Notes under the pieces: generated by a model | What the model was told of the DNA's origin: nothing | The model's database searches: none | Seen by the model: the letters and a program-made list of their open reading frames with translations, nothing else | Translations under genes and position numbers: made by a program | Assembly (NCBI GenBank): GCA_016124845.1 | Contig: WGMW01000032.1 | Coordinates: 1-46,189 of the forward strand | Direction of reading: 5' to 3' | Origin: Flavobacteriales bacterium | GTDB taxonomy: Bacteria; Bacteroidota; Bacteroidia; UBA10329 | DNA length: 46,189 nt | Shown: positions 9,095-43,141 of the stretch, piece by piece | Layout of the letters: every line of letters begins with the position of its first letter | Position numbering within the stretch: the stretch's first letter is position 1

Positions 9095-9547
9095 TCAACC
9101 ACGCAGCTTGTCAAGAATCGAGTTCAGGGTTGCCGCTTCCTCTTCGGTGATGGTCACCACTTTCTTGTTGAAGTTCTCCATCTGCACATCAATGGCCTCC
9201 AGCAACTTCAAGCCTGCTTTGGTAATAAACACATCCACCAAACGCTTGTCTACCGAACACGTTTTGCGGCTTACCAGACCTTTCTGCACCAATCTGTCCA
9301 CAATACGCGAAGCGTCTGACATCTTGTCCAACATTCGTCCGCGGATGCATGACGTACTCAGCGGCTTCGGTGTACTTCCGCGCAGAATACGAAGCACATT
9401 ATATTGCTGATTGGTGAGCTTGTGCGGTTTCAGCAGGTCATTCAACATGCTTCGGATCCAACTGTCGGTAAACATGATATTCACCACGGCTTTATGACGC
9501 TCGCTCGAAAAGCCTTTCTCCTGCTTTATTTCCTCTTCTAATTTCAT
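9095..9547 (-). CDS. MarR-family transcriptional regulator
   Basis: 150 residues from the ATG at 9547. A further ATG at 9565 is in frame, but MKLEEEIKQEKGF is the usual start in this Bacteroidota group and a GGAG lies just before it. Winged helix-turn-helix: LLKPHKLTNQQYNVLRILRG, recognition region MLDKMSDASRIVDRLVQKGLV, wing SRKTCSVDKRLVDVFIT, then a C-terminal dimerisation helix. A single Cys in the wing (SRKTCS) could sense oxidants or electrophiles; this is inference. Its own promoter (-7 box 9582-9589) is overlapped by a palindrome at 9593-9610 that recurs at the start of the ygiD-like gene (17901-17920), which predicts autorepression and control of that gene. Confidence 0.93.
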   Translation of the reverse strand: MKLEEEIKQEKGFSSERHKAVVNIMFTDSWIRSMLNDLLKPHKLTNQQYNVLRILRGSTPKPLSTSCIRGRMLDKMSDASRIVDRLVQKGLVSRKTCSVDKRLVDVFITKAGLKLLEAIDVQMENFNKKVVTITEEEAATLNSILDKLRG

Positions 9548-9581
9548 GGACTCCAATGCCTGCATCGTATCACAGACAACC

Positions 9582-9589
9582 CAAATATA
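9582..9589 (-). promoter_or_regulatory. -7 box of marR
   Basis: TATATTTG on the minus strand, an exact TAnnTTTG match, 34 bp before ATG 9547. The operator palindrome lies immediately upstream, in the spacer between the -7 and -33 positions. Confidence 0.65.
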
Positions 9590-9592
9590 AGA

Positions 9593-9610
9593 TCAATGTT
9601 CAAACGTTGA
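9593..9610. promoter_or_regulatory. Candidate MarR operator at its own promoter
   Basis: TCAATGTTCAAACGTTGA, an imperfect 18-bp palindrome (TCAAYGTT-nn-AACRTTGA). It matches 16 of 18 bases of the site at 17902-17919. Size and symmetry fit MarR-family operators, and its place between the promoter elements fits repression. Confidence 0.65.
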
Positions 9611-9631
9611 GTTCGCCACCCGCTCAACAAC

Positions 9632-10645
9632 TTATTTATTGAGTGGGACCTGCAGAATATACGGGTTGAAAACCTGTGAGATATAAAGATTCCCGTTATA
9701 GATCAGTCCAGTGGAAGCTGCGCTGAGAATGGTTCCCGCGTCCACGTAAAGGGTGTCGATGGCTTCGGTTTCAAGATTTACCGTATAAACCGCGCAGGGC
9801 GAAGGTTTATCGGCATGCTTCACGTGCTTCATGAATTTCAGGAAATCCAAGTGTGCGGTGGTCACGATCTCATTTCCGTGAAACGTAATGTTGTCGTTGC
9901 CTTTCAAACACGGGATTTCCTTCTTATCCGAATACGAACCATCTGCATTGATCGCATACGAGATGATGTTTTTCTCTTGCGTTCCTGTGATGTACAATCG
10001 TCCATCCTTCACGCCAACTCCGTTCGCATATTTCAGTTTATCGCCTACGGCAGACCAAGAATTTCCATCATAATGAATTACGAAGCTGCGCTTGAGTTCG
10101 AAGAGTTTTTCCCAGATGCCGTTGCGCTTGCCGCTATCGTTGCTCACGTAAATGCCACCTTGGTGATCCGTGCAGACATCATTCGGTGAAATGATGAGTT
10201 CGGAGGTCAACTGCTGTTTGAAAACCACCTTGTCATCCAGCAATTCAAAAACCAGAATGCTCTGTCTTCCTGTCGGAGGAAAATCAGCCTCGTTCTTCTC
10301 GTGGTTTACGCTGTAAATGAGTTTTTCTCCGTTCACCACGCCAATATCAATACCATGCGGACGGAACGCAATCGATTCTGGCAGGCCTTCCATTGGCAGT
10401 TTCACCAGTTTCCCTGAGGAGATGTTGTAATCGTAAAATCCATTCTTGGAATAATCTTCAGAGCGTCTTTCCGAACATGAAATGATCAACCGTTCGTTGC
10501 CACCCATGGTATCTAAGGCAATATCCTCTGGCCCTCGACCGACCTCGATACGTGTGTAATCTCCTGTGAATGTTGGGTACTTCCCGCATGAAACAAGGAG
10601 AACCGAAAAAAGAAAAAAGAAAAAACGGATCAGATATGAATTCAC
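9632..10645 (-). CDS. SMP-30/arylesterase-like beta-propeller lipoprotein
   Basis: 337 residues with lipoprotein signal and lipobox LVSC (Cys20). The rest shows spaced motifs of the paraoxonase/SMP-30/gluconolactonase six-bladed propeller: VGRGPEDIALD, FRPHGIDIG, SPNDVCTDHQGGIYVSND, LKYANGVGVKDGRLYIT and GNDNITFHGNEI. The Asn and Asp residues in PNDV, ANGV and GNDNI correspond to calcium ligands in that family. It probably acts as a membrane-anchored lactonase/esterase, or is a non-catalytic propeller; the substrate cannot be told. It is a single gene, with a paired-hairpin repeat upstream and marR downstream in the same direction. Confidence 0.85.
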   Translation of the reverse strand: MNSYLIRFFFFLFSVLLVSCGKYPTFTGDYTRIEVGRGPEDIALDTMGGNERLIISCSERRSEDYSKNGFYDYNISSGKLVKLPMEGLPESIAFRPHGIDIGVVNGEKLIYSVNHEKNEADFPPTGRQSILVFELLDDKVVFKQQLTSELIISPNDVCTDHQGGIYVSNDSGKRNGIWEKLFELKRSFVIHYDGNSWSAVGDKLKYANGVGVKDGRLYITGTQEKNIISYAINADGSYSDKKEIPCLKGNDNITFHGNEIVTTAHLDFLKFMKHVKHADKPSPCAVYTVNLETEAIDTLYVDAGTILSAASTGLIYNGNLYISQVFNPYILQVPLNK

Positions 10646-10682
10646 AGTATCAAGGTTAAATCAAAGCGTTCTACTTCAGGTC

Positions 10683-10734
10683 ATGCTGAACTTGTTTCAG
10701 CATCTATCAACAGACCCTGAAACAAGTTCAGGGT
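10683..10734. repeat. Paired-hairpin repeat (REPIN-like), copy 2
   Basis: First hairpin: stem ATGCTGAA / TTCAGCAT (10683-10690, 10696-10703), loop CTTGT. Second: stem ACCCTGAA / TTCAGGGT (10714-10721, 10727-10734), loop ACAAG. The design matches copy 1 at 9038-9090, with stems that differ by paired changes. It follows elbB and precedes the lipoprotein gene. Confidence 0.85.
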
Positions 10735-10744
10735 AACTGACACA

Positions 10745-11440
10745 TCAACCCTCTTCCAACATCTCAAACAATTGATCGATGGCCTGCTTGATGTTGTCTC
10801 GGATGTCCGAGATAGAAGCTTCCATCATGTAGCATGGCGCGGTGATGATGCGGTTCTCCGTGTCCACGGAAATCTCGTGTACCGTCTTCATTTCGGCCAC
10901 GGCACCCGTCTTCACCATTCCTGCGCTGATGGCACCGATCTCATAAGGCGAAGCTTCTTGGGTTGTTCCAACCGTGAGATGCTCATTTAATCCTGCTCCT
11001 TCCAATGCTTTGGCGATAACGGTCGGCCCCATGCAAAGCCCAACGATCGGTTTATTGGCATTCACCATTTCATTGATGATGCGTTTCACTTCTTCATTAA
11101 TCTCGCCATCTGGACCGTTGAACGCCCACGTGGTAAGGTTCTTGGCTGCTCCAAAACCGCCTGGAATGACCAACGCATCCATATCGGCTGAACTCATATC
11201 GGCCAGATCGGAAATGGCTCCACGGGCAATGCGGGCGGCTTCCACCATGACGTTGCGCTTCTCCTGCATCTCATCTCCAGAAATGTGGTTGATCACGTGA
11301 TACTGATCCACATTTGGAGCCATGCAGATAGCCTCGCCCCTGTTCTCATCGATGGCCAAAAGCGTGAACACGCTCTCGTGAATTTCCGACCCGTCATACA
11401 CTCCATTGCCAGAAAGCAACACTCCTATTTTATAACTCAT
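10745..11440 (-). CDS. elbB: ElbB-type glyoxalase (DJ-1/PfpI superfamily)
   Basis: 231 residues, full length. The start MSYKIGVLLSGNGVYDGSEI and the sequence HESVFTLLAIDENRG are specific to ElbB (isoprenoid biosynthesis protein with amidotransferase-like domain). The nucleophile elbow is VGLCMGPTVIA with the conserved Cys; VIPGGFGAAKNL and GAVAEMKTVHEISVD are further family blocks. E. coli ElbB has glyoxalase activity on small dicarbonyls; a role in isoprenoid synthesis was proposed but is uncertain. Cytosolic. It lies 105 bp downstream of the mscS gene in the same direction and might be read through from that operon. Confidence 0.93.
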   Translation of the reverse strand: MSYKIGVLLSGNGVYDGSEIHESVFTLLAIDENRGEAICMAPNVDQYHVINHISGDEMQEKRNVMVEAARIARGAISDLADMSSADMDALVIPGGFGAAKNLTTWAFNGPDGEINEEVKRIINEMVNANKPIVGLCMGPTVIAKALEGAGLNEHLTVGTTQEASPYEIGAISAGMVKTGAVAEMKTVHEISVDTENRIITAPCYMMEASISDIRDNIKQAIDQLFEMLEEG

Positions 11441-11545
11441 TGTTCTCTGTTTGCCGTGAAATTAGTGATTCGAAAAGTGTACCTGAAAAACCGATGTTTC
11501 AAACGGTTGCAAAATCAGATGATCTCTGAGTTTCAACAACAATTT

Positions 11546-12442
11546 TCAGTTTGAATCGGATTTCACAATGCTTGTAACCTCCGAAGTTGTAGTTGCAATG
11601 CCGATGTTCTCATGCTTACCGATCTCATCGAGCAAAGCCGTGTAAATGCGGTCCTTGGTACTTCTTCTGCTCTTGTAATCCACAATATACCGCAAGGTGA
11701 AGGTGATCCAATTCTCATCAAAACGAAGCGTGACCGTAGGAAGCACCCGCGCTTCCTCCACTCTGAACTTGTTGGCCAATCGTTTCCAATCCTTCTGACT
11801 TTTGAGCGCATAATCCTGGCACACGTCATTCACCACATCGGTAAATATCTTGCGCGCCAGCGCATGGTCGCTTTCCGTCCGAACGGGAACTTGTATCTCA
11901 TCCCACAGAAAAGGAAATTCTGCAGAGTAGTTGCTTACCAACTGCTTGAAAACGTAGCTGTTTGCCATGGTAATGATGCGCCCGTTGTAGAGGTCGCCAT
12001 CCACCCAATCTCCGATCTCCATGATGGTGGTTTTCATCACACCAATGTCAATGATGTCGCCTTTCGCCTCACCGATCTTCACGCGCTGTCCTACGCTTGG
12101 CGTTCCTGAAAGGATGATGTTCAGCCAACCTGCAAAACTGACGATCACTTCCTGTAGCGCGAAGGTGATCCCTGCGCCTGCCAACCCCAAGGCCACACCC
12201 AAATTCCCCAGTTTATCGGCATACACAACCAATGTGATGAGAACGATCAGCAGATAGCCGATAAAGTTCACCGCCTTTCGCACGCGATAGCGATGATCCG
12301 TGTTGGTGATGTTGGTATTGACGATCCGCTTGAGAAATGCCGTGAGAATGATGACGACCACAATTCCCAATCCCACATACACCAATCGGTTGAAAGCCGC
12401 GTTGTGCAACCAAGTGTCAAGCGTATCGAGGAAACTGTTCAT
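11546..12442 (-). CDS. MscS-family mechanosensitive ion channel
   Basis: 298 residues. N-terminal hydrophobic helices at about 18-38 and 58-80; then the pore-lining helix and beta domain typical of MscS: LGVALGLAGAGITFALQEVI, GWLNIILSGTPSVGQRVKIG and GDIIDIGVMKTTIMEIGDW. The C-terminal part is cytoplasmic. It should open on membrane tension and release solutes during osmotic downshock. It is the last gene of the minus-strand racemase operon, 41 bp after its neighbour; a channel here could vent accumulated amino acids, but that is inference. Confidence 0.93.
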   Translation of the reverse strand: MNSFLDTLDTWLHNAAFNRLVYVGLGIVVVIILTAFLKRIVNTNITNTDHRYRVRKAVNFIGYLLIVLITLVVYADKLGNLGVALGLAGAGITFALQEVIVSFAGWLNIILSGTPSVGQRVKIGEAKGDIIDIGVMKTTIMEIGDWVDGDLYNGRIITMANSYVFKQLVSNYSAEFPFLWDEIQVPVRTESDHALARKIFTDVVNDVCQDYALKSQKDWKRLANKFRVEEARVLPTVTLRFDENWITFTLRYIVDYKSRRSTKDRIYTALLDEIGKHENIGIATTTSEVTSIVKSDSN

Positions 12443-12483
12443 TCGGTGAGATGCATGACGAAGTTACAACCGAAACCCGTCTT

Positions 12484-13554
12484 TCAAACCAACCGTTTTT
12501 CGATATAATCGGAATTGAGCAGTCCGAGCGCGCCCATGTATTTGAGACGGAAAGAGACAATGTCACCCACTTTGTATTCCTTCTCGCTGTTGCTGATATC
12601 GATGACCAGCATGTCCGAACTGGCACCGACAACCTCAATATGCTCATCCTCAGGAATGAGGAAATCGGTCGAAATATCCAGCAGACCAATATCAAGAATG
12701 GCGCGGTGCATATTCTCACCGAAGTCATTTTCATCCACTTTAAACACTTCGCCCGAAGGGTTCTCCGCCAAATAACCGATCGGCACTTTGGGCTTTTCGG
12801 TTATCTCAATGATCTCCGTAAAAAGTTTGATCACATCGGGTTTCATGCCGTCAATGGTTTCCTCGGTAAGCAGGTTATTGCCGAAATAGAGTGTTTCGCC
12901 CACGCGGAAATGATTGACGCCATCGGGTACCTGATGCTGCAACAGCAACGGAATAATAACCGAAGTACCGCCCGTTACCCAAGGAATATCGCGATTGAAT
13001 TTGAACTCAACCAACTGCTGATACAAGCTCAATTGAATGAGTTTATCCTGCGATGGCAGCACTCCATTGAGGCAGTTGAGATTGGTGCCGATACCCGAAA
13101 TTTCAATGTTCGGTAGTTTGAAGATGCTGTCGTAAAAGTCGATGAGGTGATCGCCCATGATACCTTCGCGCAGGTCTCCCAACTCGATCATGATGATGAC
13201 CTTGTGCGTCTTGTTCTGCTTCACAGCCTCCTCCGACAGCATTTTGATGGTCGCGAATTCCGTATTGAAACTCACATCGGCATACTTCACCACCTTGTCT
13301 ATGCTTCGCTTGGCGGGCGGTTTGATGTACACCGTCTGCACACTCGGATCAATTTCCTTCACCACTTTCAGGTTGCTGATGCGCGAATCGCACAGTTCTG
13401 TTGCTCCGAGTTTGATGATCTCTTGGATGTACGTTCGGTTGCCGCAAAGCATTTTGGTCACCACCGCCCATTCCTTTCCATACTCCTTGAAGAGTTCATC
13501 GAGGAAATGATAGTTGTTTGCCAGTCGGTCTTTGTAAAGTTCAATGTAAGCCAT
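12484..13554 (-). CDS. Alanine/ornithine racemase-family PLP enzyme
   Basis: 356 residues, fold-type III PLP enzyme with an alanine-racemase N-terminal barrel. The PLP lysine is expected at K34 in VVTKMLCGN. Other blocks: VQTVYIKPP, IIMIELGDLREGIM, GIGTNLNCLNGVLPS, PWVTGGTSVIIPLLLQHQVP and HFRVGETLYFGN, which match the ornithine/alanine racemase (Orr, YhfX-like) group rather than classic Alr. Predicted to interconvert L and D forms of an amino acid, possibly ornithine or a related basic one. It starts 3 bp after the stop of the alr-like gene, so the two are cotranscribed. Confidence 0.88.
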   Translation of the reverse strand: MAYIELYKDRLANNYHFLDELFKEYGKEWAVVTKMLCGNRTYIQEIIKLGATELCDSRISNLKVVKEIDPSVQTVYIKPPAKRSIDKVVKYADVSFNTEFATIKMLSEEAVKQNKTHKVIIMIELGDLREGIMGDHLIDFYDSIFKLPNIEISGIGTNLNCLNGVLPSQDKLIQLSLYQQLVEFKFNRDIPWVTGGTSVIIPLLLQHQVPDGVNHFRVGETLYFGNNLLTEETIDGMKPDVIKLFTEIIEITEKPKVPIGYLAENPSGEVFKVDENDFGENMHRAILDIGLLDISTDFLIPEDEHIEVVGASSDMLVIDISNSEKEYKVGDIVSFRLKYMGALGLLNSDYIEKRLV

Positions 13555-13557
13555 GGT

Positions 13558-14709
13558 TCATGGGGTTATGATGCGCGGAATGTCGTGCGGCAACCGCGTG
13601 AGTAGTTCGTAATTGAGCTGGGCGCTGAGTTCACCGAAGGATGAAACGCTGATGCCCATATCACCCTGTCTGCCTATCAGCACCACTTCATCGCCAATGC
13701 TGGTTTCGGGAACGTTGGAAACATCAGCAATAAGCATGTTCATGTTCACCACGCCTATCACGCTTACGCGAGCACCTCTGATAAGAATGCGGCCCGTGTT
13801 GCTGAGCGAGCGGCTGTAGCCTTGTGCATAACCGACAGGCACCACGGCCACTTTCATATCCTGTTCGGCCATGTAACTGGTGCCGTAACCGACAAACTCG
13901 CCCGCATGCACCAAGTGTGTGGTCATCACACGGCTCTTCCAAGTTATTACCTGCTTTAGCGGATCTTCTTTTTCGCGCTTGCCGCCAATGAAATTGATGT
14001 GCGTCTCGCGACTTGGCCAATAGCCGTACTGCATGATGCCGATACGCGCCATGTCCATGCGTGTTTTCGGGTACGAAATGGCAGCTGCAGAACATGCCGT
14101 ATGCAGGCGTATCGGCTCAATTCCCTTCTCTGAAAGCCATCGTTTGTACTTATTAAAAAGTTTGTATTGCTGACTGACGCGCACGTGGTTGGCAATACTT
14201 TCCGCGCCTGCATAGTGCGTGCAAAGACCTTCGACAATGAAGTACTTTGCGTGCTTGGTCAGAAACTCGACAACCGTTCGCAGTTGCTTTTTGGTGTAAC
14301 CAGTTCGGTTCAGGCCTGTGTCCAATTCAATGTGGATACGAGCAGGGATCTTGATCCGTTTGGCCACTTCCAAGGCGTTTTCCAAACGAGTAATGTCGAA
14401 CACAAAAAAGGAAATATGGTTGCGGACGGCCCATTCAATGTCAGCCTTATCGATCATTCCCATGATCATCACCTCGCTGTTGCTGCTTAGCACTTCCTTT
14501 GCCTGAAATGCTTCCTGTGCGCTGAAAACCGAGAAATGCCGCACTCCGCATTCTTCTGCCAGCGGCACAAACTGACCGATGCCGTGGCCGTAGGCATTTC
14601 CCTTCACCACCGAAGAGAGTTCGCAGCCATCGCCAAGCAGATCTTTGATAAAACCAACGTTCGCTTTCAATGCGCTTTGGCTGATCTCTATGGTGGAAGT
14701 ATGAACCAT
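13558..14709 (-). CDS. alr: Alanine racemase-like PLP enzyme
   Basis: 383 residues, complete Alr fold: barrel with the PLP lysine K36 in SSVVKGNAYGHG, substrate-side Arg in DTGLNRTGY, and a C-terminal beta domain with the catalytic-Tyr region GEFVGYGTSYMA and VPVGYAQGYSR. The usual carboxylate-contacting 'MD' of the GRxxMD block reads NMNM here (Asp to Asn), which may shift substrate preference. D-alanine for peptidoglycan is the default role, but its place in an operon with a second racemase, an M20 amidohydrolase and a symporter suggests a catabolic or specialised role. It ends 3 bp before the second racemase and starts 1 bp after the amidohydrolase stop. Confidence 0.9.
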   Translation of the reverse strand: MVHTSTIEISQSALKANVGFIKDLLGDGCELSSVVKGNAYGHGIGQFVPLAEECGVRHFSVFSAQEAFQAKEVLSSNSEVMIMGMIDKADIEWAVRNHISFFVFDITRLENALEVAKRIKIPARIHIELDTGLNRTGYTKKQLRTVVEFLTKHAKYFIVEGLCTHYAGAESIANHVRVSQQYKLFNKYKRWLSEKGIEPIRLHTACSAAAISYPKTRMDMARIGIMQYGYWPSRETHINFIGGKREKEDPLKQVITWKSRVMTTHLVHAGEFVGYGTSYMAEQDMKVAVVPVGYAQGYSRSLSNTGRILIRGARVSVIGVVNMNMLIADVSNVPETSIGDEVVLIGRQGDMGISVSSFGELSAQLNYELLTRLPHDIPRIITP

Positions 14710-14710
14710 C

Positions 14711-15862
14711 TTATTTGCTCAAGATCAGATCGACAATTGTGCTGAACATCTTCACACCCGTTGGTGTGATCTCATCGGGGAAATCGTAATCGGGATTGTG
14801 CAGCGCAGGTGTTTTTTCGCCAGCTCCAATACCGAACATGGCTCCCTTGAACTGCTCGGTGAAGAGTCCGAAATCCTCGCCCCAGCGGAAGGGTTCCTGC
14901 TTCTCTTCAAATTCGAACCCGTTTGTTTTGGCCGCTTCGCGAACGACCTCCACCATCTCAGCTCCGTTCTGGTTGGCCGAGAAGAACTGCGTCCAGTCGA
15001 TCTCTACTTTCAGTTTGTATTTCTTACCGATCTTCTGCGCCAGCTTTTCGCAATCAGCCGCAAGTTCTTCCATGGTCTCACTGTCCCACGTGCGGATGGT
15101 GAGTTTCACCTCGCCATAACCTGCCGAAATGCCGTAGGCTTCTTCTCCCATTTCTATCTGAATGGGCGTTACCTGCTTAAAACCTTTCTCCTCCTTCGGG
15201 ACCTGCAACTTGTTCGTTTTCTGAAGAATTTCGGCTATCGCGAGGGCAGGATTTATTCCAAGATCGGGTTCGCCTGCGTGCGAGGTCTTTCCATGTAATT
15301 TAATGATGATGCTTTGAACCGAAGCGGTGAAACTACCAGCACAGCAGACGATCTTGTGCATCGGGTAGCCAGGAAGATTATGCAGCGCGAAAACGTAATC
15401 GGGTCTGATCTCGTCAAACTTCGGGTCTTCCAGCACCGCTTTGGCACCTTCGCCATTTTCCTCGGCAGGCTGAAAAAGCAACACCACCTTGCCCACCTTC
15501 GGACGGTTCTTGCTGAAGTGAACTGCCAACCCCGCCAGAATGCTCATGTGGCCGTCATGTCCGCATTTGTGCGAAACATGTTCATCTTCCGAGCGATGCT
15601 CGAACGTGTTGATCTCTTCAATGGGCAGCGCGTCCAACTCGCAACGGATAAGCACCGTTGGCCCCGAACCGAAATACGAGTAAACGGCCGCAACACCATT
15701 GCCGCCAATGCCATCAATGAGCTTGGTCGGTTTGTAGGAACTCAGAAAACCAGAAATGCGCTTGGCCGTTTCCGTCTCCTGTCCAGACAGCTCTGGATAA
15801 CGGTGCAACAGCTTACGCAGCTTGATCAATAGTTTCGTTGGTACATGTGTTTTTGTGGCCAT
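14711..15862 (-). CDS. M20 family amidohydrolase
   Basis: 383 residues, family-typical length and no signal peptide, so cytosolic. Metal-site motifs: HKCGHDGHMSIL (Cys/His/Asp ligands), PAEENGEGAKAVLED (paired Glu), FALHNLPGYP and, near the end, PALHNPDYDFPDE. This is the aminoacylase/IAA-amino acid hydrolase branch of M20 (N-acyl-L-amino acid or N-acetyl-diaminopimelate type). It would release a free amino acid from an acylated or peptide substrate. It lies directly downstream of the symporter gene (start and stop adjacent) and upstream of two racemases, which suggests import, deacylation and racemisation in sequence. Confidence 0.92.
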   Translation of the reverse strand: MATKTHVPTKLLIKLRKLLHRYPELSGQETETAKRISGFLSSYKPTKLIDGIGGNGVAAVYSYFGSGPTVLIRCELDALPIEEINTFEHRSEDEHVSHKCGHDGHMSILAGLAVHFSKNRPKVGKVVLLFQPAEENGEGAKAVLEDPKFDEIRPDYVFALHNLPGYPMHKIVCCAGSFTASVQSIIIKLHGKTSHAGEPDLGINPALAIAEILQKTNKLQVPKEEKGFKQVTPIQIEMGEEAYGISAGYGEVKLTIRTWDSETMEELAADCEKLAQKIGKKYKLKVEIDWTQFFSANQNGAEMVEVVREAAKTNGFEFEEKQEPFRWGEDFGLFTEQFKGAMFGIGAGEKTPALHNPDYDFPDEITPTGVKMFSTIVDLILSK

Positions 15863-17305
15863 CTATAAGGTGGTTTTAGTTCGGTCTGAAGAGAAGAATT
15901 GAACAAGGACGAAACTGGCGGCAGAAACCGAAATCCCGAAGAAATTCTCGTCCAATCCGAATGGAAGCTCCAAATCGGATACGATGAGTACAAGGGTAGT
16001 CATTCCTCCCGAGACCATGGCAACAAGTGCCGCCAATGATGATGGCCTCTTCAGCATCAACATGCCCAGAACAGGCACAAAAAGCCCCGAAACCATGAAC
16101 GCGTACGAGTACAGCATCAAATCCAGCACGTTCTGCATCATGGTGGCAAGAAGAATGGCAATGACACCAATGGCCAGCGTGGTCAGTTGCGACCAACGCA
16201 AACTGGTGTTGCTGCCGTGTTTCACCTTGCCGAGAACATCTGTAAGGAAGTTGCCTGATGCTGCCATCAAACAACTGTCTGCCGTGGACATGATGGCCGA
16301 GAAATAGGCCGACATCATCAACCCCATCAAACCGATAGGTAGAATATTGCTCAGCAACAGCGGCAGACCGAGTTCGGCATCCAAATGACCTGTTGCGGGA
16401 TAACCGACCGCTTCGAACATCCCTTGTTCAAACGCCACGCGACCGAAAAGCCCAAGTATCACACCCATAAAGGCCATCACGGGCCATTCGAAAAGTCCTG
16501 CCACGCGCCACGCTTTCTTGGCCGTTTGCTCATCGCGGCACGCATATATGCGTTGGTAGAGCGTCATTCCCACAAACCATATCGGTACAATGGTTATCGC
16601 CCAATTGAAGAATTGCATGAACGAAAGATTGGAGAGTTGCAGCATTTCGGGTTCCGCAATGGAACTGATCGCTTCCCAGCCGCCCACTTTCACGTAACCG
16701 ATGGGAATACCGATAAAAACCAGTCCGCACATGAGAATGATCCATTGAATTGTGTCGGTGTAGATGACCGCTTTGATGCCACCAATGACCGTGTATGCCA
16801 CGGCAATTATGCCCATCATCAGCACCGCTTGCGGAATGGAAATGCTGGGAAAAGTGGCCGCAGCCAACTTCGCGCCAGCCAACACCTGCGAACTTGTAAA
16901 CCCGACATAACCGATCAGCGAGATGATGCCTGCGATGAACGCCACTTTCGAATCGTAGAAATGTTCCAGCATTTCTGGAAAGCTGAGCAGGTTCTTTTTT
17001 CGAGCGATGGGATAAACCTTTGGAATGAGGAAAACCGCGCTGAGCCAAGCACCCAGCAATCCTGTAAAGAGCATCCAACTGCCCGAGATGCCCATCATGA
17101 AACCAAGGCCTCCCAACCCGATGGAAAACCCACCACCGACATCGGTGGCAACCACAGAAAGCCCCACATGGCCCGCGCCCATGGTTCTGCCGCCCACATA
17201 GTAGTCTTCTTCCGAAGTGTTCTTGTTGAGGAAGTAAACACCCACCCCAAGCATGGCCAGGAGATAGGTGATGAATATGGTCAGATCAACCCAATGTATG
17301 CCCAT
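15863..17305 (-). CDS. Sodium:solute symporter (SSS family)
   Basis: 480 residues with about 13 hydrophobic segments, an inner-membrane secondary transporter. The start MGIHWVDLTIFITYLLAMLG, GGRTMGAGHVGLSVVATDVGG and the repeated GIIAVAYTVIGGIKAVIYTD are typical SSSF blocks; the last is the family signature around helices 5-6. It moves an organic solute with sodium ions. The operon (amidohydrolase and two racemases directly downstream) points to an amino acid, acyl amino acid or dipeptide as cargo. It starts 6 bp after the GNAT stop. Confidence 0.93.
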   Translation of the reverse strand: MGIHWVDLTIFITYLLAMLGVGVYFLNKNTSEEDYYVGGRTMGAGHVGLSVVATDVGGGFSIGLGGLGFMMGISGSWMLFTGLLGAWLSAVFLIPKVYPIARKKNLLSFPEMLEHFYDSKVAFIAGIISLIGYVGFTSSQVLAGAKLAAATFPSISIPQAVLMMGIIAVAYTVIGGIKAVIYTDTIQWIILMCGLVFIGIPIGYVKVGGWEAISSIAEPEMLQLSNLSFMQFFNWAITIVPIWFVGMTLYQRIYACRDEQTAKKAWRVAGLFEWPVMAFMGVILGLFGRVAFEQGMFEAVGYPATGHLDAELGLPLLLSNILPIGLMGLMMSAYFSAIMSTADSCLMAASGNFLTDVLGKVKHGSNTSLRWSQLTTLAIGVIAILLATMMQNVLDLMLYSYAFMVSGLFVPVLGMLMLKRPSSLAALVAMVSGGMTTLVLIVSDLELPFGLDENFFGISVSAASFVLVQFFSSDRTKTTL

Positions 17306-17311
17306 ATCGGA

Positions 17312-17767
17312 TCATCGCTTTAGGCGCATCTCCAGATACGGGTTGGTAAAACCGAACTTCTCGTAAAGTTTCTTTGCAGGATTGTTGTGCTCCACATGCA
17401 AGGCAATATCGCCTTTGGCGAAACTCAGTGTCTCCTCCATCAGCTTCTTGCCAATGCCCTGCCCTCGGTAGTCTTGATGCGTGGCGATGTAAACCAAAAT
17501 GTTCTCTGGAATGTAGCCACCCATGCCTGTTCGGTTCACAATCACGGCACCTGTGACCTTGTCCTTATCGTACGAGACAATGACAAACCCACCGAATGAT
17601 GTGGTTTCCTTCACCGCGAAGTTGAGGCACCTTAGAATCTGCTCCTTCGGGTCTCCGTATTCCTGAAGATGTTCGTGAAGAAAATCAACTATTTCGCGCT
17701 TCTGAAGTTCAGACGGACGCTCCAGCGCATCGAACACCCGTGTTTCTATAGAATTTGAAATGATCAT
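17312..17767 (-). CDS. GNAT-family N-acetyltransferase
   Basis: 151 residues, a single GNAT fold. The acetyl-CoA pyrophosphate loop is seen as HQDYRGQGIGKKLMEE (Q/RxxGxG/A pattern), after the beta-strand PENILVYIAT; the final part LHVEHNNPAKKLYEKFGF is the usual C-terminal GNAT block. Target unknown. As first gene of the symporter-amidohydrolase-racemase operon it may acetylate an amino acid or amine handled by the others, working against the M20 enzyme; this is inference. The upstream 150 bp to the divergent ygiD-like gene must hold the operon promoter, but I see no perfect TAnnTTTG box for it. Confidence 0.9.
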   Translation of the reverse strand: MIISNSIETRVFDALERPSELQKREIVDFLHEHLQEYGDPKEQILRCLNFAVKETTSFGGFVIVSYDKDKVTGAVIVNRTGMGGYIPENILVYIATHQDYRGQGIGKKLMEETLSFAKGDIALHVEHNNPAKKLYEKFGFTNPYLEMRLKR

Positions 17768-17900
17768 CCGCCCATTGTAACATCATTAAGCGGAATTCCA
17801 AATTTTCAGGGTTATTTCTTTGATCCATCAAACGGAAACCAGATCGGTTTTGCTTAAATCGGAGAGCATCGCTACCCGACATTTCAAACATTTCCATAAT

Positions 17901-17920
17901 TTCAATGTTTAAACATTGAA
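17901..17920. promoter_or_regulatory. Perfect 20-bp palindrome at the ygiD start, candidate MarR operator
   Basis: TTCAATGTTTAAACATTGAA is a perfect palindrome that runs into the start codon (A of ATG is 17920). Its core at 17902-17919 differs from the marR-promoter site at 9593-9610 in only two of 18 bases. A repressor bound here would block transcription or early elongation of the dioxygenase gene. Confidence 0.75.
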
Positions 17921-18801
17921 TGAAACGGAAATCCTTCATAAAAGCGCTGTCCGCAGCTCCAATCGCACTCTCAATGAATCCACTCAATAGTCTTAGATCG
18001 TTTACAGCAACCTTTTCTTCTACTGAGAAAATGCCCGTGCTTTTTCTGGGTCATGGAAGCCCAATGAACGCCATTGAGGAAAACGACTTCGTACAGAATT
18101 TCCGAAAACTTGGAAGGGAATTGCCGCAACCGAATGCCATTCTGTGTATTTCCGCGCATTGGTACACCAAAGGAACCATGGTCACGGCCATGGAACAACC
18201 AAGAACAATTCACGATTTTGGAGGGTTCCTACAAACGTTGTTCGATGTGCAATATCCAGCTCCAGGTTCACCAGAATTGGCCGTTCAAACACAACGTTTA
18301 TTGGGTAAACATGTCGGGCTCGACCAAGACTGGGGCTTGGATCACGGTACTTGGTCTGTGGTAAAGCATCTTTATCCGAATGCGGATGTACCAGTAATTC
18401 AACTCAGCATCGATTATACTAAACCGCCAGAATATCATTTCCAGTTGGCTTCAAAGCTTCAATCGCTACGCGAAAAGGGCGTTCTGATAATTGGCAGCGG
18501 AAATATTGTTCACAATCTGCGCATGGTAGATTGGCCGAACATCAACAAGGAAAACCACGGATACGATTGGGCCATGGAAGCGCGCACCAGCATCAATTCT
18601 CACATACTGGATGACGATTTCAAACCACTATTGGATTACCGAGATCAAGGAAAAGCCTATCAATTGGCCATTCCAACTCCTGATCACTTTCTTCCGCTTA
18701 TCTACACACTCGGACTGAAAGGAAAATCTGAAGATCTGGAACTCTTCAACGATAAACTGATGGCAGGCTCGCTGAGCATGACCTCGGTGAAGATCGGTTA
18801 G
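17920..18801 (+). CDS. ygiD: 4,5-DOPA dioxygenase extradiol-like protein (LigB family)
   Basis: 293 residues. An N-terminal extension (KRKSFIKALSAAPIALSMNP) looks like a degenerate secretion/Tat-type leader, then the YgiD core begins at MPVLFLGHGSPMNAIEEN. Class III extradiol dioxygenase signs: GHGSPMNAI, SAHWYTKGT, QPRTIHDFGGF, WGLDHGTWSVV, GSGNIVHNLR and PTPDHFLPL, carrying the His residues of the metal site. It would open catechol rings such as DOPA; the physiological substrate in bacteria is unclear. The upstream palindrome suggests control by the window's MarR protein. Its stop overlaps the stop of the convergent methyltransferase gene by a few bases. Confidence 0.93.
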   Translation: MKRKSFIKALSAAPIALSMNPLNSLRSFTATFSSTEKMPVLFLGHGSPMNAIEENDFVQNFRKLGRELPQPNAILCISAHWYTKGTMVTAMEQPRTIHDFGGFLQTLFDVQYPAPGSPELAVQTQRLLGKHVGLDQDWGLDHGTWSVVKHLYPNADVPVIQLSIDYTKPPEYHFQLASKLQSLREKGVLIIGSGNIVHNLRMVDWPNINKENHGYDWAMEARTSINSHILDDDFKPLLDYRDQGKAYQLAIPTPDHFLPLIYTLGLKGKSEDLELFNDKLMAGSLSMTSVKIG

Positions 18802-38658: not shown

Positions 38659-38785
38659 ATCGTCAAATTTGAACAAGGTGGCGCCTAAATTACATTAATA
38701 GGCCTACATGTTTTACTTTAGCCCCATTCAATGTTAGTGCTTCCGCAGATATTGGCACGCAAAGAAAATCTATCCGAATCAGTTG

Positions 38786-41700
38786 ATGAGACACCTCTTT
38801 CTATTCCTTGGCCTGTTCCTTATCGGAAGTGCATTTCAGGAAACGAATGGACAGACGGCCAACATGAGTCAAGGATGTGCACCGCTCACGGTCAGTTTCA
38901 CCGCTCCCAGCGGTAGTGGGCCAACCCATTTTTGGGATTTTGGGGATGGTGCCACGGCAACCCTTCAGAACCCTCAGAACACATTCACCGATCCGGGAAC
39001 ATATACCGTTGAGTATCATGCTACGGCCAGCGGGCCAATTATAGGTACCGTAACGATCAATGTGTATGAACAACCGACCCCGGAATTCACTGCGGATCCC
39101 GAAACGGGCTGCCCGCCTCTGAATGTGTCATTTCAGGATGCGACCCAATTAGCCTCCGGAATCACGATCAGTTCCTATAATTGGGTTTTTGGAGATGGTG
39201 GAAGTGCCAACGGAGCTTCGCCCAATCATGTTTTCACCAATTCCGGATCTTTTTACGTGTCGTTGCAGATAACCACCAACATGCCCTCATGCAATGTGAC
39301 GCAACTGTATGATGATGCGATCGTGGTCACCAACGGACCCACGGTAAATTTCTCAACAGATCCGAACCCGGCCGTTTCCTGCGACCCACCGTTGACCGTC
39401 AGTTTCACGAACAACAGCAGTTCTCCCAACACACTTTCATACCAATGGGATTTCGGCAATGGCAACACCTCCTCGGTTGAAGACCCAGCGGCACAGACGT
39501 ATTCGCAGAACGGGAACTACATCGTTACACTTACTGCCACAGATCCTTCCGGATGTGCCAGCACCTATCAGCGGCCGGTGAATGTGGGTTCGCCCACAAC
39601 CGACTTTGTCATTCCCGACACGGTCTGCCTTGGGCAAAGCATACAGATGGACAACCAGTCTTCACCCGGATCATACCAATGGGTTTTCGCGGCCGGCACC
39701 ACACCTCCTTCCAGCAGCCAAATGGAACCTCTGGTCACGTTCAACACCGCTGGATTGCAAGATGTGACGTTGACCACTTATTCCGGGCAATGTTCAAGCA
39801 GTCTTACGGTGCAAATTTTTGTGGAGGAAGCCTCGGCAGCATTCACATCAACTCCTGAATATGCGTGTTCCCAACCAATGGATGTGCAGTTTACGCCCAA
39901 CAACACGGGATATTCAGAGTATCATTGGCTCTTTGGCGATTCGACCACCAGCAACCTCGTAAGCCCCGATCACACTTATTTCTTTCCCGACACACAGCAG
40001 TATTCGTGGAACGGCCTCGATACGCTGGTCACGCAGCTTATCGTGGTTTCATCTGCTGGATGTCGGGACACGGTCACCGTACGCGACACCCTTTGGCGGC
40101 CGAACGCAGTGTTCTTCCCCGATGTGGCCGAAGGGTGTGTTCCACTCACCGTCACCTTCTCAGACTCCAGCACCAGCAACGAGGATATTGTTGCATGGGA
40201 GTGGCATCTGGGAGACGGAACCGTGGTCAATGCATCCAACGGAAACCCGCAAACGGTAACATTTACGCAGGTGGGGCATTTTGCAAGCTACCTCATCATT
40301 ACCAATGCGGCAGGATGCAGAGATACCTCGTACAAGGTCATTACGATTGTGGGCGACCAGTTGACTCCCGATTTTTCGGTGGATGTGACAGAGGTCTGTC
40401 CGGGAGACCCCGTGCAGTTCACCAACCAAACGGCCATGTCAGACAGTATTGATGCATGGCACTACTATTCTGAAGGAAACAGGCAGTTCCACTGCTATGA
40501 CGACCCCAACCCGACCTGGACCTATACGGATGAAACAGGAATGATGGACGTGACGCTGATGGTGGGTTGGAACGGTTGCTATTCCAGTACTACCGTAAAT
40601 GACCTCATCAATGTAAAAGGCCCTATTGCAGAAATTCTGTTGAACTGCGAGTGCGATGCGCCCTATGATGTCGACTTCAGCAATGTGAGCCATGATTTCA
40701 CAACCATTTCGTGGGATTTTGGAGATGGAAGTACAAGTACGGACAGCACGCTGACGCACACCTATGCCGCCACGGGCGACTATACCGTGGTGCTGACCGC
40801 AAATAACAGCATAACCGGTTGTCCGACCTCTTACGACACCGCAATTGTCAAGATCCGCGATATTCAGGCATCGTTCAGTTCAGATTCGATCATCTGCCAA
40901 GGCCAGCCCTCGCCATTCAACGCAGGAGCTTCGCAAGATGTGTTCTCCGATTGCTGGGGCGGGTACACCTATCAGTTCGATGACCCCACAAAACGACCGA
41001 TCACAACTCCGAACGCCAACCAGCCCATCGGTTTCGATAACGTTGGAGATGTGGGCGTGACCTTGATCGTGAGAGATGTGAACGGTTGCCGCGATACGGC
41101 CCATGCCAACGTTTACATCACAGGTATCGATGCGGCATTCAGTCTCTCTGACACGTATATATGTACTCCATACGATGTGAGTTTCACCGACCTTAGCACA
41201 TCCGATACCACCATTACCGATTGGTTCTGGAGCTTCGGTGACTTTGGCACCAGTACCGATCAGAACCCCACACATACCTACACCAATAGCCAAGACAGCG
41301 TTACGGTGAATTTTGTCGTTACCACAGCTGCCGGATGTGTGGCTTCCTTGGACACGCTCATTACCATGTACTCGCCTTTCAGCAATATAGGTTCCACTCC
41401 TTCCTTTACAAACATCTGCGTAGGACAGACCGTCAGCTTTTCGGCCACGGATTATACCGCAGGAGGCTCCAACCTCTCTTTCGATTGGGACTTTATGGAT
41501 GGAGGTTCGAGCCAACTTCAGAACCCATCACACCAATTCGATCAGGCAGGCACCTTTACCGTTACCTTGAATTTTACGGAGAATGCTACCGGCTGTACCG
41601 GAAGTTCTATAAAGACGGTGAACGTTCAACCATACCCCGTGGCAGGTTTTTCCACTCCTGATGCCGATTCCTTAGGAGTGCTGTGCGCGCCCTCAAATGC

Positions 41701-43141
41701 CACATTTACAGACACAAGCGTGGTCAGCGGTACTCATTCCACCTTCTGGGACTTCGGCAACGGTTCCACATCATTCCAGAACCCCGGTAGTAGCGCCTAC
41801 ATCAGTGGCGACTATGAGGTGACCATGATCGTGAATTCATCTTTCGGCTGCTCAGATACGGCCCATCTGGACATCCATGCCATCAACCCGGAAGGCTCGT
41901 TCACCATCGATAAGAATACCATCTGCCGAGGCGAAACAATTACGTTTACACTGGAAGACACCAGTCAGGTCTATGATTACTTCTGGGATTTTGGAGACGG
42001 TAATTCCGCTTCGAATGTGAATCCGGTATCACATACCTACACGTTCGTGCCGCCATCTGGGCAAACGGTGGGCAAGTTGGTGGTTTCCGGTCTTTTCGGT
42101 GCCTGTCCCGATCAGTCCACTATTCCAATCAACATCCACGAAGTGGTGGCCAATTTCATACGTAATGATGGAATAGATACTGCGCTGTGCTTTCAGCCGT
42201 TCCCGATCACAAATACATCGCTCAATTCGGATGTGTTCTACTGGGATTTCGGCTTTGGCCAACCGACAACGATCGAAAATCCCGGTGTGGTGGATTTCCC
42301 CGGTCCGGGAGATTATGATGTGACGCTCGGTGTGCTCAATACGTTATTGGGCTGTAACGATACCATTGTCAAAACCGTCAGGCTGTTTCAAATTCCCACG
42401 GTTGAAGGATTGGGAGATACCATCTGCGAAGGAAACGTGGGAGACCTGCAAGTAGTGAACATTGAGCCGACCTCATCTTATGTTTGGCGGTCGACCGTGG
42501 AGGTGACCGACTCGACCGCAGCCATCACCACATCGGCCCCTTTGCTTACGGCAGATTATGAGGTGATGGTTGTTGATACCAATGGCTGTTCGGATGTGGA
42601 CACAGCCACCATTTTCGTGATCAATCCATTGGCGCTATCGGACTGGGACACCACCATTGTGATCGGTGATTCCGTCTGTCTGCCCATGAGTGCAGAGGCC
42701 GGCCTCTACATATTTACCTGGACCCCACCGGACGGATTGGACTGCGATACCTGCGGAAGCCCCTGTCTGCAACCGATGGAAAAGGTTACTTATTCGGTTT
42801 CTGTGAGTGACATTCTCGGCTGTTTTACGGCCCATGCCGATTACACCGTGGACATATATCCCGAAACATTCCTTGCCATGCCTACCACCTTCACGCCCAA
42901 CGGAGACGGCCACAACGATGTGGTATCTGTTGAAGGTTGGGGCATCAAAGAACTGGTGGAGTTCAGGATCTTTAACCGATGGGGCGAGGAGGTGTTCTCA
43001 ACCACCGACAAGCATCAGGGATGGGACGGACGCTTTAAAGGTGTGCTTCAGAACAATGATGTTTATGCCTACAGGATAAAAGCAACCACCTGGCGTGACG
43101 AATTGAAGACACTTGAAGGATACATCAACCTGTTAAGGTAA
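38786..43141 (+). CDS. Giant PKD-repeat surface protein with gliding-motility (type B T9SS) C-terminus
   Basis: 1451 residues from ATG 38786 (a TTG lies one codon upstream). Signal peptide MRHLFLFLGLFLIGSAFQ. About 13 PKD-type units follow, each marked by a turn such as FWDFGDG, YNWVFGDGG, YQWDFGNGN, WEWHLGDGT, ISWDFGDGS, FDWDFMDGG and YFWDFGDGN, with many Cys pairs between units. The C-terminal about 90 residues (AMPTTFTPNGDGHNDVVSV, FRIFNRWGEEVF, WDGRFKG, DVYAYRI) are the CHU_C/type B sorting domain. It is a secreted, surface-attached adhesin-like protein, divergent from the M43-porP-ompA operon that probably serves it. Confidence 0.95.
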   Translation: MRHLFLFLGLFLIGSAFQETNGQTANMSQGCAPLTVSFTAPSGSGPTHFWDFGDGATATLQNPQNTFTDPGTYTVEYHATASGPIIGTVTINVYEQPTPEFTADPETGCPPLNVSFQDATQLASGITISSYNWVFGDGGSANGASPNHVFTNSGSFYVSLQITTNMPSCNVTQLYDDAIVVTNGPTVNFSTDPNPAVSCDPPLTVSFTNNSSSPNTLSYQWDFGNGNTSSVEDPAAQTYSQNGNYIVTLTATDPSGCASTYQRPVNVGSPTTDFVIPDTVCLGQSIQMDNQSSPGSYQWVFAAGTTPPSSSQMEPLVTFNTAGLQDVTLTTYSGQCSSSLTVQIFVEEASAAFTSTPEYACSQPMDVQFTPNNTGYSEYHWLFGDSTTSNLVSPDHTYFFPDTQQYSWNGLDTLVTQLIVVSSAGCRDTVTVRDTLWRPNAVFFPDVAEGCVPLTVTFSDSSTSNEDIVAWEWHLGDGTVVNASNGNPQTVTFTQVGHFASYLIITNAAGCRDTSYKVITIVGDQLTPDFSVDVTEVCPGDPVQFTNQTAMSDSIDAWHYYSEGNRQFHCYDDPNPTWTYTDETGMMDVTLMVGWNGCYSSTTVNDLINVKGPIAEILLNCECDAPYDVDFSNVSHDFTTISWDFGDGSTSTDSTLTHTYAATGDYTVVLTANNSITGCPTSYDTAIVKIRDIQASFSSDSIICQGQPSPFNAGASQDVFSDCWGGYTYQFDDPTKRPITTPNANQPIGFDNVGDVGVTLIVRDVNGCRDTAHANVYITGIDAAFSLSDTYICTPYDVSFTDLSTSDTTITDWFWSFGDFGTSTDQNPTHTYTNSQDSVTVNFVVTTAAGCVASLDTLITMYSPFSNIGSTPSFTNICVGQTVSFSATDYTAGGSNLSFDWDFMDGGSSQLQNPSHQFDQAGTFTVTLNFTENATGCTGSSIKTVNVQPYPVAGFSTPDADSLGVLCAPSNATFTDTSVVSGTHSTFWDFGNGSTSFQNPGSSAYISGDYEVTMIVNSSFGCSDTAHLDIHAINPEGSFTIDKNTICRGETITFTLEDTSQVYDYFWDFGDGNSASNVNPVSHTYTFVPPSGQTVGKLVVSGLFGACPDQSTIPINIHEVVANFIRNDGIDTALCFQPFPITNTSLNSDVFYWDFGFGQPTTIENPGVVDFPGPGDYDVTLGVLNTLLGCNDTIVKTVRLFQIPTVEGLGDTICEGNVGDLQVVNIEPTSSYVWRSTVEVTDSTAAITTSAPLLTADYEVMVVDTNGCSDVDTATIFVINPLALSDWDTTIVIGDSVCLPMSAEAGLYIFTWTPPDGLDCDTCGSPCLQPMEKVTYSVSVSDILGCFTAHADYTVDIYPETFLAMPTTFTPNGDGHNDVVSVEGWGIKELVEFRIFNRWGEEVFSTTDKHQGWDGRFKGVLQNNDVYAYRIKATTWRDELKTLEGYINLLR

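Follow-up and report, generated by a model that had tools for sequence, protein, structure and literature searches.

The stretch of DNA analysed here (46,189 nucleotides, hereafter the window) corresponds to contig 32 in a genome of 4.36 Mb. It carries, among others, the genes marR (positions 9095-9565, minus strand) and ygiD (17920-18801, plus strand), each with a palindrome at its start. The putative operator of marR, TCAATGTTCAAACGTTGA (9593-9610, not assigned to a strand), was identified by direct reading as an imperfect palindrome with 7 of 9 pairs matched. It lies in the gap between marR and the preceding ORF (9632-10645, minus strand), 28 bp before the marR start. The putative operator of ygiD (17901-17920, likewise unstranded) is a perfect 20-bp palindrome that overlaps the start codon, its final A being the A of the ygiD ATG; its core, TCAATGTTTAAACATTGA (17902-17919), is the window's sole perfect palindrome of 18 bp. 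The two 18-mers are identical at 16 bases and differ at two. Both palindromes, their agreement and the perfect symmetry at ygiD are as described in the initial annotation.

The initial annotation also placed the first palindrome between the promoter elements of marR, which holds for one side only. A putative sigma-A -7 box of the Bacteroidota type, TATATTTG (9582-9589, minus strand; direct reading), corresponds to the TAnnTTTG consensus described for F. psychrophilum (available portion of PMC9723704) and is located 3 bp from the palindrome, which would thus span roughly -33 to -16; on the other side, no clear -33 TTG is visible by eye upstream of this box. A scan for sigma-70 promoters reported no promoter at marR, a miss that is expected of such a scan in Bacteroidota.

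The product of marR (P0001, 156 aa), proposed here as an autoregulated repressor, possesses the domain of the MarR superfamily (Pfam PF01047, score: 33.1 bits; cut-off: 24.6). No NCBIfam equivalog matched P0001 at its cut-off; the best was HpaR, the regulator of the homoprotocatechuate operon (TIGR02337, score: 47.2 bits, far under the cut-off of 121.2). The nearest fold match (22oz) is also an HpaR, but no hpa genes were seen in the neighborhood of marR. The best PDB sequence match (7e-15) is 3u2r, a solved structure of a MarR protein from Planctomyces limnophilus whose title names no function. The AlphaFold model of P0001 exhibits the winged helix with flanking dimer helices of the superfamily (mean pLDDT: 91.4), and Foldseek matched it to MarR proteins. 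By our own reading, P0001 contains only two cysteines, at positions 73 and 103. In the model, Cys103 (codon 9257-9259, minus strand) is the residue with which the wing loop between strands 98-102 and 110-114 begins, in agreement with the earlier claim of a MarR protein with a Cys in its wing.

ygiD encodes a 293-aa member of the 4,5-DOPA-extradiol-dioxygenase family (LigB fold) with a hydrophobic leader (NCBIfam NF007914, score: 329.8 bits; cut-off: 233; Pfam LigB also matched). The annotated start is supported, because many homologs align from residue 1. The gene was not found in the 8 other genomes of the genus, the window's genome being the sole carrier among nine. Among 30 ygiD homologs with loci, a clear palindrome was found only before the window's ygiD and, in another form of the motif, before L132; the two closest homologs (72-73% identical) lack such a site. 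A distant YgiD gene (~52%, genome G084) is preceded by TTGATGTTTAAACATTGA. ygiD may be a recent recruit to the regulon discussed below.

Agreement at 16 of 18 bases is by itself weak evidence, since such pairs of 18-mers are frequent even in a shuffled window (about 24 arbitrary pairs at up to 2 mismatches in one shuffle of the 46 kb; the real window contains 934), and we rejected it as the sole argument for a shared operator. The same figure speaks for a chance resemblance without function, a reading to which we return below. Both palindromes stand out in being symmetrical and, at the same time, placed at the start of a gene. With up to 3 mismatches allowed, the window contains 4 matches (2 places on two strands), versus 0.36 expected per shuffled window.

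The genome-wide scan for the 18-mer proposed in the initial annotation identified TCAATGTTTAAACATTGA as a rare motif. At up to 2 mismatches it occurs in 6 places, versus 0 for the reversed control and 0 in 4.6 Mb of shuffled sequence (100 windows); on these counts we rejected the idea of a common genomic repeat. Two of the six places are those at ygiD and at the window's marR. Two more belong to a pirin gene and a YceI gene, at 9 and 20 bp, respectively, upstream of the start. The fifth is 41 bp upstream of a second marR (marR2) that heads an operon of HlyD-type efflux genes, and the sixth is 54 bp before a gene for an ECF-type sigma factor; the first five sites stand directly before the start codons of their genes. 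At up to 3 mismatches there are 8 places (control: 1), and of the two thus added one is within an ORF and the other intergenic with no obvious link. The exact sequence AATGTTNNAACATT is present in 5 places in the genome, namely at ygiD, pirin, YceI and marR2, and once inside a gene. The regulon initially proposed, which comprised marR and ygiD, therefore retains both members but was too small, since pirin, YceI and the second marR also carry sites.

Conservation of the sites was analyzed among 118 relatives, eight of them from the same genus. Each of the six pirin orthologs with at least 78% identity (G000, G001, G003, G004, G005 and G007) retains the site, in five of them 9 bp before the start and in G005 farther upstream, and the YceI site is kept in all three genus orthologs with upstream sequence (G000, G004, G007). 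For marR, the promoter-proximal half-site AACATTG is present in 5 of 6 close orthologs (L038, L039, L040, L042, L043) and degenerate in L041, while TATATTTG is likewise kept in 5 of 6 (L038-L042, not L043). In G006 and G008, marR follows a pirin-type gene and the core of the motif is found 30-31 bp before that gene; both genomes lack marR2. The excess over the control in the genome, the placement at promoters and the conservation at the pirin and YceI genes stand against the chance resemblance raised above, which we consider extremely improbable.

The sites could also belong to the product of marR2 (C21:82149-82622, ~31% identical to P0001), which would control or share those at ygiD, pirin and YceI. 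This is suggested by TCAATGT(T/C)TTAACAT, a site that contains the core of the motif: of the six genus orthologs of marR2, five (G000-G004) carry it 56-72 bp upstream of their start, and that of G007 lacks it. However, marR2 orthologs (at least 65% identity) are confined to G000-G004 and G007, and genomes without marR2 still keep sites, at pirin in G005 and at the pirin-type gene and YceI in G006, which makes P0001 the likelier regulator. Moreover, marR2 stood beside target genes at 0 of 48 loci examined, its sites have the center TTTTAA as opposed to TTTAAA or TTTGAA elsewhere, and marR2 may be one of the genes that P0001 controls. Control by marR2 thus appears to us distinctly unlikely.

Beyond the genus, MarR proteins of the P0001 type were detected in 91 of the 118 relatives (E-value of 0.001 or better) and, in GTDB genomes, in at least 593 stretches, with records in Ignavibacteria, Calditrichota and Kapaibacteria among them; apparently they form a large, uncharacterized MarR family. 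Analysis of the genomic neighborhood revealed that 47 of 88 loci of the family have a YceI, pirin, YgiD, FMN-reductase or MhqO gene no farther than 1.5 kb away (YceI: 38, pirin: 18, ygiD: 2, FMN reductase: 2, MhqO: 1), all but one of these neighbors being on the same strand, versus 0 of 48 control loci of other MarR proteins (some control genes being present twice). The remaining 41 family loci have none of the listed genes nearby. In a second set of 80 loci from named genomes, which partly overlaps the first (e.g. L414 and L199 are one locus; the union comprises 168 distinct genes), a target gene is nearby in 43 and MhqO-like genes are found near the marR homologs in 6, Algoriphagus among them. 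The gene order is marR-yceI-ygiD-pirin in G022 and marR-yceI-FMN reductase-ygiD in G097.

The sites share a core, ATGT-N4-ACAT, which was found upstream of marR in 25 members of the set of 88 (shuffles: 0.6 on average and at most 3; some start codons in this set may be misplaced by a few codons), in 24 of the 80 members of the second set (shuffles: mean 0.4, max 3) and in 47 of the 168 distinct genes of the merged set (expectation: ~1), upstream regions shorter than 60 bp having been dropped from the counts for the 88 and for the union. For 121 of the 168 family members no exact core was found within 150 bp upstream. Paired cores upstream of marR are spaced by exactly 15 bp in 13 of 14 instances, and in 32 of the 47 cases the core is followed by a TAnnTTTG box, mostly at one of two offsets that are themselves 15 bp apart. 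In 29 cases marR comes immediately after a target gene, and in 13 of these the core stands before the target, which locates the operator at the start of the operon.

A search with TATATGTANNTACATATA that was blind to the genome returned 58 sites, located before 19 YceI, 11 marR, 2 ygiD, 2 pirin and 1 FMN-reductase genes; as the pattern was derived from the upstream regions of some homologs, the recovery of marR is partly circular, while YceI was not used in deriving it. No gene from the reference families accompanies the other 23 sites: 9 fall within ORFs, 4 (at 3 loci) precede genes for HipB-like helix-turn-helix proteins, 1 precedes a nitroreductase gene and 1 a disulphide-isomerase-family gene, and the remainder are at other genes or none. 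At 25 further site loci, a target-type gene is present at the site in 18 and absent in 7 (L072, L076, L082, L085, L087, L103, L107). Four of these 18 genes (OYE, LLM, MhqO, FMN reductase) had been identified by eye, and 70-residue N-terminal pieces of them were compared with Pfam, of which those for OYE, glyoxalase/dioxygenase and FMN_red scored above the cut-off and that for LLM below it. In G077, from another family, 29 sites were found at up to 2 mismatches (control: 1); of these, 15 loci were inspected, of which none is before a target-family gene and some are within ORFs, and they were left out of the regulon count.

Palindromes of 18-20 bp are found outside the MarR proteins too, and an unrelated factor (e.g. 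of the TetR or FNR type) might bind those described here, the association with MarR then being indirect. Against this, the identical core recurs before P0001-type MarR genes and their neighbors across families of the class, and we regard such a factor as very improbable. Regulation by P0001, that is autoregulation together with control of ygiD by a MarR protein as initially proposed, appears to be the best reading and is well supported by the rare sites, the recurrent core and the adjacency of regulator and targets (47/88 versus 0/48).

Among known regulators, P0001 can be compared with MhqR of Bacillus subtilis and Staphylococcus aureus, with which it shares the MarR fold and, as far as the available text on MhqR describes it, an 18-bp palindrome beside the promoter, in P0001 as the putative operator. 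MhqR is autoregulated in S. aureus (mhqRED) and governs ring-cleavage dioxygenases and quinone and nitro reductases through its promoter-adjacent palindrome (PMC6798810, accessible portion). The putative targets of P0001 are in part alike, with ygiD here and genes for MhqO, FMN reductase, OYE and nitroreductase beside sites or homologs in relatives. However, the two proteins are only 25% identical (Foldseek rank: 13), the MhqR operator given in that portion of PMC6798810, TATCTCGAA-aTCGAaATA, differs by eye from TCAATGTTTAAACATTGA, and the targets of the P0001 family are led by YceI and pirin. The DUF24 regulators YodB, CatR and QsrR also act on dioxygenases and quinone reductases, and QsrR senses via S-alkylation of Cys5 (same portion of PMC6798810). 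These target types, dioxygenases and reductases, are shared with P0001, but the sensor Cys of the DUF24 regulators, going by that text, is N-terminal, whereas P0001 has no N-terminal Cys and its candidate is in the wing and is not universal.

In the alignment of 88 family members, column 103 contains Cys in 57, Asn in 14 and Ser in 11, and every other column has less than 20% Cys. On this distribution Cys103 would be a candidate sensor and no proven one, and since the position is Cys in just these 57 homologs, a ligand pocket as in MhqR seems at least as likely as sensing by the wing Cys. The quinone pocket of MhqR consists of F11, F39, E43 and H111 (excerpts of PMC12893000). By our own reading of the sequence, the His111 of those excerpts has no visible counterpart in P0001, which contains no His after the wing.

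No description of a MarR regulon that joins YceI, pirin and YgiD or other dioxygenases was found in the open-licence PMC papers searched, and the accessible portion of PMC11304471, on the pirins of Bacteroides fragilis, contains nothing on YceI or on MarR regulators. The target list as a whole (LigB- and VOC-fold dioxygenases, flavin-dependent reductases, pirin, YceI) runs parallel to those of MhqR and YodB/QsrR as the available texts describe them, while the operator and the family differ. The quinone reading is colored by two associations, that of YceI proteins with isoprenoid binding and that of pirin with quercetinase activity.

We propose, with a probability of roughly 0.8, that P0001 represses its own gene and a small number of scattered genes and is released by a compound of the catechol or quinone type. 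A dimer of P0001 would bind palindromes resembling TCAATGTTTAAACATTGA, with the core ATGT-N4-ACAT, located on or next to promoters. It would cover the region from about -33 to -16 at marR and that of the start codon at ygiD; it would also bind before the pirin and YceI genes of its own genome and probably before marR2 at the head of the efflux operon. Accumulation of a catechol- or quinone-type compound would cause the repressor to leave the DNA, and the enzymes would then be made. Binding by P0001 is what we infer from the sites, and repression (as opposed to activation) with relief by a quinone or catechol from the types of the target genes. Sequence comparison supports an autoregulated MarR stress regulon of a known sort, with a distinct operator and a target set that recurs in Bacteroidota. 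A broader possibility, which we find doubtful, is that the family is a dedicated regulator of quinone and catechol stress across Bacteroidota and neighboring phyla, controlling YceI, pirin and the ring-cleaving dioxygenase of the respective lineage (the LigB-fold YgiD or the VOC-fold MhqO) and sensing electrophiles by a Cys in the wing that touches the DNA.

Hundreds of Bacteroidota genomes carry a P0001-type MarR beside YceI and pirin genes. If the proposal is true, an operator and a set of targets could be assigned to these regulators, together with a class of inducer that can be tested, and YceI, pirin and two unrelated ring-cleaving dioxygenases would be joined in one response, organized as an operon in some lineages and as a scattered regulon in another, with the core of the operator unchanged.

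Upstream of a number of marR homologs, the operator core ATGT-N4-ACAT, the proposed target of the MarR protein encoded in the window, occurs in tandem (loci L199, L201, L225, L255, L266, L298 and L303, among others), and the spacing of the paired cores is exactly 15 bp in 13 of 14 cases. This tandem arrangement suggests that dimers bind side by side, phased to the -7 box (the Bacteroidota-type promoter element TAnnTTTG). In the window's own genome, one TCAATGTTTAAACATCCA site (L006, G000:C40:79649-79666) is located 54 bp upstream of a gene encoding an ECF-type sigma factor, a possible additional member of the regulon.

Palindromes resembling TATATGTAAATAGATATA were found upstream of helix-turn-helix genes that we take to be HipB-like (our own name for them) at L288 (G000:C33:85927-85944, in the window's genome), L279 and L261, in three genomes, one of which (G054) has two copies. 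These are probably autoregulatory sites of the genes themselves, unrelated to MarR. In genome G077, from another family, the motif allowing up to 2 mismatches occurs 29 times, vs once for the reversed-motif control; the sites (loci L088-L102 were inspected) are found upstream of unrelated genes and within ORFs, and may represent a different abundant element or regulon. Within the window, a 1452-aa ORF (38783-43141) encodes some ten PKD domains together with a type IX secretion signal of the CHU_C type; of the 934 pairs of 18-mers that differ at 2 positions or fewer, many may originate from the repeats of this ORF.

The ygiD gene (17920-18801) is present in the window's genome and in none of the eight other genomes of the genus searched, a pattern that may reflect gain or repeated loss. 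Related palindromes precede a gene of the disulphide-isomerase family (PF06491; L273, G114:C95) and a nitroreductase gene (L252, G058:C3), which hints at a theme of thiol and electrophile stress.
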